Below, piece after piece: positions 34,729 to 36,430 of a stretch of 64,000 bases of DNA (positions are counted from its first letter, which is position 1; each line of letters begins with the position of its first letter). The notes under the pieces are model-generated. The model was not told the DNA's origin, did not search any database, and saw only the letters and a program-made list of their open reading frames with translations. The translations under genes were made by a program, and so were the position numbers. The DNA is from Clostridiaceae bacterium (GTDB lineage Bacteria > Bacillota > Clostridia > Peptostreptococcales > Tindalliaceae), in the NCBI GenBank assembly GCA_011390155.1, contig JAABSW010000008.1, positions 1-64,000 on the forward strand. The letters are read 5' to 3'.

Positions 34729-36015
34729 CTAAGGTGTTAATCTTTTAAGGTCTCTGGGTAATAACGTGGCTTCACGTATATTGCTCAGCCCGCATAATTT
34801 CATGGTAATCCTTTCCAAACCGATGGCCAGCCCTCCATGGGGTGGCATGCCATAACGGAAGCTTTCTGTGTAGAATGAGAACTCTGTTGGATCCAGGTTG
34901 AATTTTTTCATGTTGTCCATCAGATGATGGTAATCATGAATCCGTTGGCCACCCGTGGTGATTTCAAGGCCCCTGAAGAGCAAATCAAAGCTTCTGGTAA
35001 CCGACGGGTCATCCTCATAGGGCATGGTATAGACAGGCCGTTTAGCCGTTGGGTATTTAGTGATGAAAACAAATTCACTGTCGTATTTCTTCATAATGTA
35101 TTCAGCCAGAAGGCTTTCACCTTCTGCATCAAGGTTTCCTGGGGGTGATGGTTTTCCATATTCTTCCAACAGTACTTGCTGCGCCTCTGCCAAAGGCATA
35201 CGGGGAATGTCCCTGACGGTTGGCAACACAGCTCCCAACATATCAAGCTCCTCACTGCAGTGTTCCTGTAGGTAAGGGATCAACATTTTCATGAAACCTT
35301 CTTCCATGTTCATGATATCATGTTCGCTTTCGATGAACCCCATTTCAAAATCCAGGCTCACATATTCATTCAAATGACGCCAGGTGTTGTGCAATTCAGC
35401 CCTGTAGGCATGACCGATTTCAAAAACCCTTTCGAATCCGGCTCCCACCATCATTTGTTTATAGAATTGGGGACTTTGGGCAAGAAAGGCCCTGGTATCA
35501 AAATATGACACTGTGAACATTTCAGAACCGCCTTCTGTGCCTGCTGCAAGAATCTTAGGGGTGTGAATTTCTGAAAAATGTCTGGTCGACAGATAACTGC
35601 GAAAGGCTTCAACAATGGCTTGCTGTATTACAAAAGGTGCCCTGACTTTTGCCGGTCGAAGACTGATGGTTCTGTGATCCAACTTGGTTTCCAGGTGTAC
35701 TGATTCCTCTTTGTTTACAGGAAAAGGTAATACTTCATAATTAGCCTTACCCACAATTTGCAGGGATGTCACTTGTATTTCATAACCACCGGTTGCTTTT
35801 TCATTTTCTCTGCAGACACCCTTGACAGTCACGGCTGCTTCCAACCGCAGGTTTTCTTCCAACTCACCTTCCAGCACCAGCTGAACCAATCCTGTTTTGT
35901 CCCTTAGGGTGATAAATTTTATCCTTCCCAGGTCATGGATTCGGTGAACCCAACCCTGTACTGTTACCTCTTGTTCACAATGTTTTTTCAGCTCTTTGAC
36001 ATAAATTCGTTCCAT
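34729..36015 (-). CDS. aspS2: Archaeal-type aspartyl-tRNA synthetase, probably non-discriminating
   Basis: Class IIb synthetase expected to make Asp-tRNA-Asp and mischarged Asp-tRNA-Asn. At 428 residues it is far shorter than bacterial AspRS (about 590) because the GAD insertion is absent. It has an OB-fold with VTVQGWVHRIHDLGRIKF, class II motif 2 (FEIGHAYRAELHNTWRHLNEYVSLDFEMGF) and motif 3 (GGLAIGLERITMKLCGLSNIREATLLPRD). The His after GWV is, from memory, the mark of non-discriminating enzymes. Linkage to gatCAB and an AAC-specifier T-box supports the Asn-tRNA role. ATG at 36015 follows GGGAGGAG. Confidence 0.92.
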   Translation of the reverse strand: MERIYVKELKKHCEQEVTVQGWVHRIHDLGRIKFITLRDKTGLVQLVLEGELEENLRLEAAVTVKGVCRENEKATGGYEIQVTSLQIVGKANYEVLPFPVNKEESVHLETKLDHRTISLRPAKVRAPFVIQQAIVEAFRSYLSTRHFSEIHTPKILAAGTEGGSEMFTVSYFDTRAFLAQSPQFYKQMMVGAGFERVFEIGHAYRAELHNTWRHLNEYVSLDFEMGFIESEHDIMNMEEGFMKMLIPYLQEHCSEELDMLGAVLPTVRDIPRMPLAEAQQVLLEEYGKPSPPGNLDAEGESLLAEYIMKKYDSEFVFITKYPTAKRPVYTMPYEDDPSVTRSFDLLFRGLEITTGGQRIHDYHHLMDNMKKFNLDPTEFSFYTESFRYGMPPHGGLAIGLERITMKLCGLSNIREATLLPRDLKRLTP

Positions 36016-36074: not shown

Positions 36075-36119
36075 CAAAAAACCCGTCCATTGCACAGTTT
36101 CCTGTTGCAAGGGACGGGT
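36075..36119 (-). terminator. T-box regulated terminator
   Basis: On the minus strand ACCCGTCC pairs with GGACGGGT (36112-36119 with 36081-36088), with an upper CTGTGCAA-type stem, followed by six T residues. The 5' arm overlaps the sequence needed for the competing antiterminator. Confidence 0.85.
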
Positions 36120-36395
36120 TTTGATTTCCGCGGTACCACCCTGATTAGTCTGGTTTTCAGACTCACTCGTGTCAATACAGAAAAACGGTCTGACATTGTC
36201 AGAAAATTTTTCGATACCTGTTCCCGATAACGGGGGACTTCCGTTCGAGTCTACTAAGGAATTCTCCTTTTCGGTCGAATGCTCCTGGGTGTTCTTCAAT
36301 CCCATCCGCCTGCCAGGCTTCCACCATCCCTGACTCGCTGAAAAGTTGGATATTGGATCTACTCTCCCTCTCAACGCACTTCTTATGTAAAGATG
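36075..36395 (-). promoter_or_regulatory. T-box riboswitch, specifier reads AAC (Asn)
   Basis: tRNA-sensing leader of the aspS2-gatCAB operon. The T-box core AGGGTGGTACCGCG is at 36129-36142. Stem I shows the AGTA loop-E side and a GAA-G-AAC-A arrangement, the same layout as in glyQS leaders, which places the specifier codon AAC at 36291-36293. The apical loop motif (CAGGGATGGTGGAAGCCTG) is present. Uncharged tRNA-Asn is expected to favour the antiterminator and switch the operon on. The specifier call comes from manual folding. Confidence 0.88.
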
Positions 36396-36401
36396 TCACT
36401 A

Positions 36402-36430
36402 ATTATACAACTGCCTGACTAATATTGCAA
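36402..36430 (-). promoter_or_regulatory. Promoter of the T-box operon
   Basis: TTGCAA (36425-36430) and a perfect TATAAT (36402-36407) are 17 bases apart on the minus strand, just upstream of the leader. Confidence 0.75.

Follow-up and report, generated by a model that had tools for sequence, protein, structure and literature searches.

The 64,000-nucleotide stretch of Clostridiaceae bacterium DNA analyzed here (the window) carries an RNA leader in front of a gene for an aspartyl-tRNA synthetase, which is followed by genes of a GatCAB amidotransferase. This locus raises the question which tRNA the leader senses and which role the operon plays in the cell. All features of the window described below lie on the minus strand. 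The only RNA family matched by Rfam on this strand was the T-box (RF00230). The match extends from 36383 to 36107, covers the model end to end (positions 1–219) and reached 119.9 bits (E = 5.6e-26) at a gathering cut-off of 93 bits. Thus, the leader is a class I T-box comprising stem I, the stem II/IIA-B region, stem III and the antiterminator. It is the best of the 14 T-box matches in the organism's own genome, which is available as a 2.72-Mb draft (completeness 97%, contamination 2.5%). When folded alone, stem I and the stem II region were no more stable than shuffled sequences, so that these elements are supported by the covariance model. Elsewhere in the genome two complete T-box matches follow each other on the same strand with a gap of about 20 bases (C32:39397-39834; L003/L013).

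The switch elements of the leader can be read directly from the sequence. The T-box motif AGGGUGGUACCGCG is located at 36142-36129, both by sequence and in the covariance alignment, with UGGU at 36138-36135. An intrinsic terminator with a folding energy of -28.7 kcal/mol (z = -6.6) was found at 36122-36078, followed by a U run. Terminator and antiterminator have their 5' arm in common and are therefore mutually exclusive, and the UGGN bulge of a T-box is present. A consensus scan also revealed the promoter-like site TTGCAA-17-TATAAT at 36430-36402, which agrees with the consensus at 10 of 12 positions. Chance alone would produce about 0.7 sites of this quality in the stretch, so that the evidence is weak. 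An open reading frame inside the leader (36374-36045) was judged to be spurious.

The specificity of a T-box is set by its specifier codon. In the covariance alignment the consensus GAA-a-uuc-A of the specifier loop is occupied by GAA-G-AAC-A, with top-level posterior marks. This places the asparagine codon AAC at 36293-36291, which matches the GUU anticodon of tRNA-Asn and is exactly the triplet named in the original prediction from the letters alone. The only GAC nearby (36276-36274), which had been considered as a possible competitor for the specifier position, falls in stem II.

The genes controlled by the leader were assigned using family profiles. The first gene, aspS2 (36036-34729, with the start likely at 36015 behind GGGAGGAG), encodes an archaeal-type, putatively nondiscriminating aspartate--tRNA(Asp/Asn) ligase and scored 574 bits with NF003483 and 430 bits with TIGR00458, both above cut-off. 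The PDB structure matching it best is that of the nondiscriminating Thermus thermophilus AspRS2 (1n9w/3kfu). Closely 3' of aspS2, and like it downstream of the T-box, follow gatC (34706-34386; TIGR00135, above cut-off), gatA (34382-32895; TIGR00132, 625 bits) and gatB (32898-31462; NF004012, 683 bits). The gatB gene gave one match in the genome and is present as a single copy. The 'aspartate--tRNA(Asn) ligase' profiles and the gatCAB identities support the earlier proposal of an operon for a nondiscriminating-type AspRS and GatCAB. A relaxed tRNA specificity of AspRS2 is predicted. In an alignment to the Thermococcus enzyme, Trp26 of the latter corresponds to His in AspRS2 and Lys85 to Thr. 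Trp26 and Lys85 are presumably marks of the discriminating archaeal enzymes, and at least at the first site AspRS2 resembles its nondiscriminating relatives. As a marker dividing proteins with AAC leaders from those with GAC leaders this residue pair failed, since the latter proteins do not have it either.

One scan of bacterial genomes yielded a set of 80 aspS2 loci. Specifiers were counted by a tightened pattern search, and the remaining leaders were read by eye. All readable leaders of gatCAB-linked aspS2 genes, 51 including the window and 50 relatives, carry AAC. GAC was found in 25 leaders of aspS2 genes without linked gatCAB, and at four loci from Caldisericia and Coprothermobacterota no T-box was found. 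The single exception to the rule that AAC accompanies gatCAB is a Natronincola metagenome-assembled genome (L095, 2774-2790), in which an AAC T-box precedes an aspS2 that stands alone, gatCAB being absent within 3 kb. In the protein tree this sequence branches off basally in a GAC clade. Four Clostridium-type genomes contain both kinds, namely gatCAB-linked genes with AAC (L049, L059, L077, L065) and stand-alone genes with GAC (L180, L182, L183, L185). A Fisher test of specifier against gatCAB linkage, with L095 included and L080 left out (the AAC of the latter was read separately), gave p = 3e-19, a value that overstates the support because the AAC proteins fall almost entirely into a single clade of 48 rows with a support of 98/95, and few specifier switches are needed. 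The association between AAC and gatCAB is thus clean and rests on few independent events.

These data also bear on the idea that the leader is specific for aspartate and senses tRNA-Asp, as would be expected for a plain aspS gene. The first gene does encode an AspRS, and the stand-alone aspS2 relatives do carry GAC. However, the alignment puts AAC in the specifier position and the neighboring GAC in a stem, and not one gatCAB-linked leader has GAC. Sensing of tRNA-Asp by this leader is practically out of the question.

Some further features of the relatives were recorded. Several leaders (L046, L048, L049, L051, L059, L060, L068, L077, L084, L097 and many of the GAC leaders) look partly doubled, with one specifier domain followed by two T-box/antiterminator motifs about 80–230 bases apart. 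Moreover, two records that bear the names of other phyla (Calditrichales for L050, Fusobacterium for L076) contain a clostridial-type operon and AspRS2, which reflects either transfer or misnamed or misbinned assemblies.

If the operon serves to make Asn-tRNA-Asn, the genome might be expected to lack AsnRS or to use it little, as the original prediction stated. With GatCAB and AspRS2 present, the operon could then be the only route to Asn-tRNA. A search for asnS, however, detected a full-length AsnRS on contig C33 (592 bits, cut-off 414). Additionally, a GlnRS (contig C36, 749 bits) and a bacterial AspRS (contig C28, 887 bits) are encoded in the same genome. Compared with the enzymes of Anoxynatronum buryatiense, the closest relative identified, the identity is 88% for AsnRS and 84% for GlnRS. 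These values exceed the 78% of AspRS2, which makes contamination unlikely, and both enzymes are very probably native. The bacterial AspRS is presumably native as well. Among the genomes with a gatCAB-linked T-box, 46 of 50 encode an AsnRS and 38 of 50 a GlnRS above cut-off; the remaining genomes include incomplete assemblies. Complete AsnRS therefore usually accompanies aspS2-gatCAB operons with an AAC T-box. The expected absence of AsnRS did not hold, and an operon acting as the sole source of Asn-tRNA is highly improbable.

The presence of AsnRS here and in most relatives suggests that the likely role of the operon is a tRNA-dependent supply of asparagine alongside AsnRS, in the way that has been reported for Clostridium acetobutylicum. 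None of the 14 T-box matches of the genome lies at the AsnRS or bacterial AspRS gene. AsnA was not found in the genome. The sole AsnB-like protein above the family cut-off (TIGR01536) is encoded on contig C104 (L041:1495-2991) and reached 400 bits, below the AsnB equivalog cut-off of 499. Its likely start, MSAIAGIM, is without the N-terminal catalytic Cys of the glutaminase domain, and the protein might work with ammonia.

The specifier loop contains a second triplet that was absent from the earlier reading. The four bases GAAC at 36294-36291 hold, one base upstream of AAC, the glutamate codon GAA (36294-36292), and the two codons overlap in the manner reported for C. acetobutylicum. Such a loop could be read as AAC by tRNA-Asn and as GAA by tRNA-Glu, and the operon would then answer to both pools. 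The comparative set offers a cheap test of this proposal. G directly precedes AAC in 45 of 51 leaders versus 6 of 25 for GAC, and both tRNAs are reported in PMC4052509 to bind the overlapping-codon T-box of C. acetobutylicum. Nevertheless, six AAC leaders (Intestinibacter and kin, Natronincola and one other) have T, C or A at this position, which argues that GAA is not required. Unlike the Glu frame, the Asn codon never varies. In Intestinibacter bartlettii (L074, 2685-2815) the loop is CAAC, and the Asn codon there overlaps with CAA, a Gln codon; near relatives have TAAC.

The acceptor end provides a second criterion. Genes for tRNA-Asn and tRNA-Glu were not found in the draft assembly, and the features of the partner tRNAs were taken from relatives. 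In those sampled, the discriminator base is G73 in every tRNA-Asn gene and A73 in every tRNA-Glu gene. Of the 45 GAAC leaders, 29 carry UGGC (these counts and those of the preceding base treat L095 and L080 as in the Fisher test). UGGC can pair with G73 and cannot pair with A73. Consequently, tRNA-Glu should not complete antitermination in most GAAC leaders, and the conserved signal is AAC with tRNA-Asn. The UGGU of the window could pair with A73 of tRNA-Glu, and G73 of tRNA-Asn would fit by wobble. Finally, with GlnRS encoded in this genome and in most relatives, GatCAB is not needed for Gln-tRNA. Taken together, a response to both pools is possible but unlikely, and sensing of tRNA-Glu by the window leader is likewise unlikely. 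Sensing of tRNA-Asn is well supported by the sequence. It is rather doubtful that in a GlnRS-bearing lineage the leader, with its GAAC and UGGU, still integrates both signals. If this were true, tRNA-made asparagine would be balanced against glutamate although GatCAB is dispensable for Gln-tRNA.

We therefore favor, with a probability of roughly 0.88, a transcription-attenuating class I T-box that senses the charging of tRNA-Asn via AAC and controls aspS2-gatC-gatA-gatB. When asparagine is short, AsnRS would leave tRNA-Asn uncharged. Its GUU anticodon would pair with AAC and its 3' end, G73-CCA, with UGGU, forming a G-U pair at the discriminator base. This binding is predicted to stabilize the antiterminator, and the operon would be read. 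AspRS2 would then form Asp-tRNA-Asn, which GatCAB would amidate to Asn-tRNA-Asn, closing the loop. The earlier idea that the cell senses uncharged tRNA-Asn agrees with the specifier, the AspRS family and the operon structure.

The leader belongs to a kind of RNA switch that has already been described and is a further case, near Anoxynatronum, of the system of C. acetobutylicum (Saad 2012, 2013, as cited in PMC4206432 and PMC4052509). According to the citing papers, that organism also has a T-box with overlapping Asn and Glu codons before its transamidation operon, and its genome combines GatCAB, AsnRS and a second AspRS with an impaired or odd AsnB. The AsnB of C. acetobutylicum is split in two, whereas the protein found here is whole and has no N-terminal catalytic Cys. 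A GlnRS in addition distinguishes the present genome. The enzyme set, to which this comparison is confined, is also that of tRNA-dependent asparagine synthesis in Deinococcus and Thermus, where a bacterial AspRS, an archaeal-type nondiscriminating AspRS2, AsnRS, GlnRS and GatCAB coexist (PMC4206432); the T-box and the linked operon are noted here. The stand-alone aspS2 genes of clostridia and Paenibacillus share the homologous archaeal-type AspRS and a T-box leader, but have a GAC specifier and no linked gatCAB in place of AAC and gatCAB. The locus confirms, for a genome close to Anoxynatronum, that T-boxes can act in tRNA-dependent amino acid synthesis and not just on a lone synthetase.
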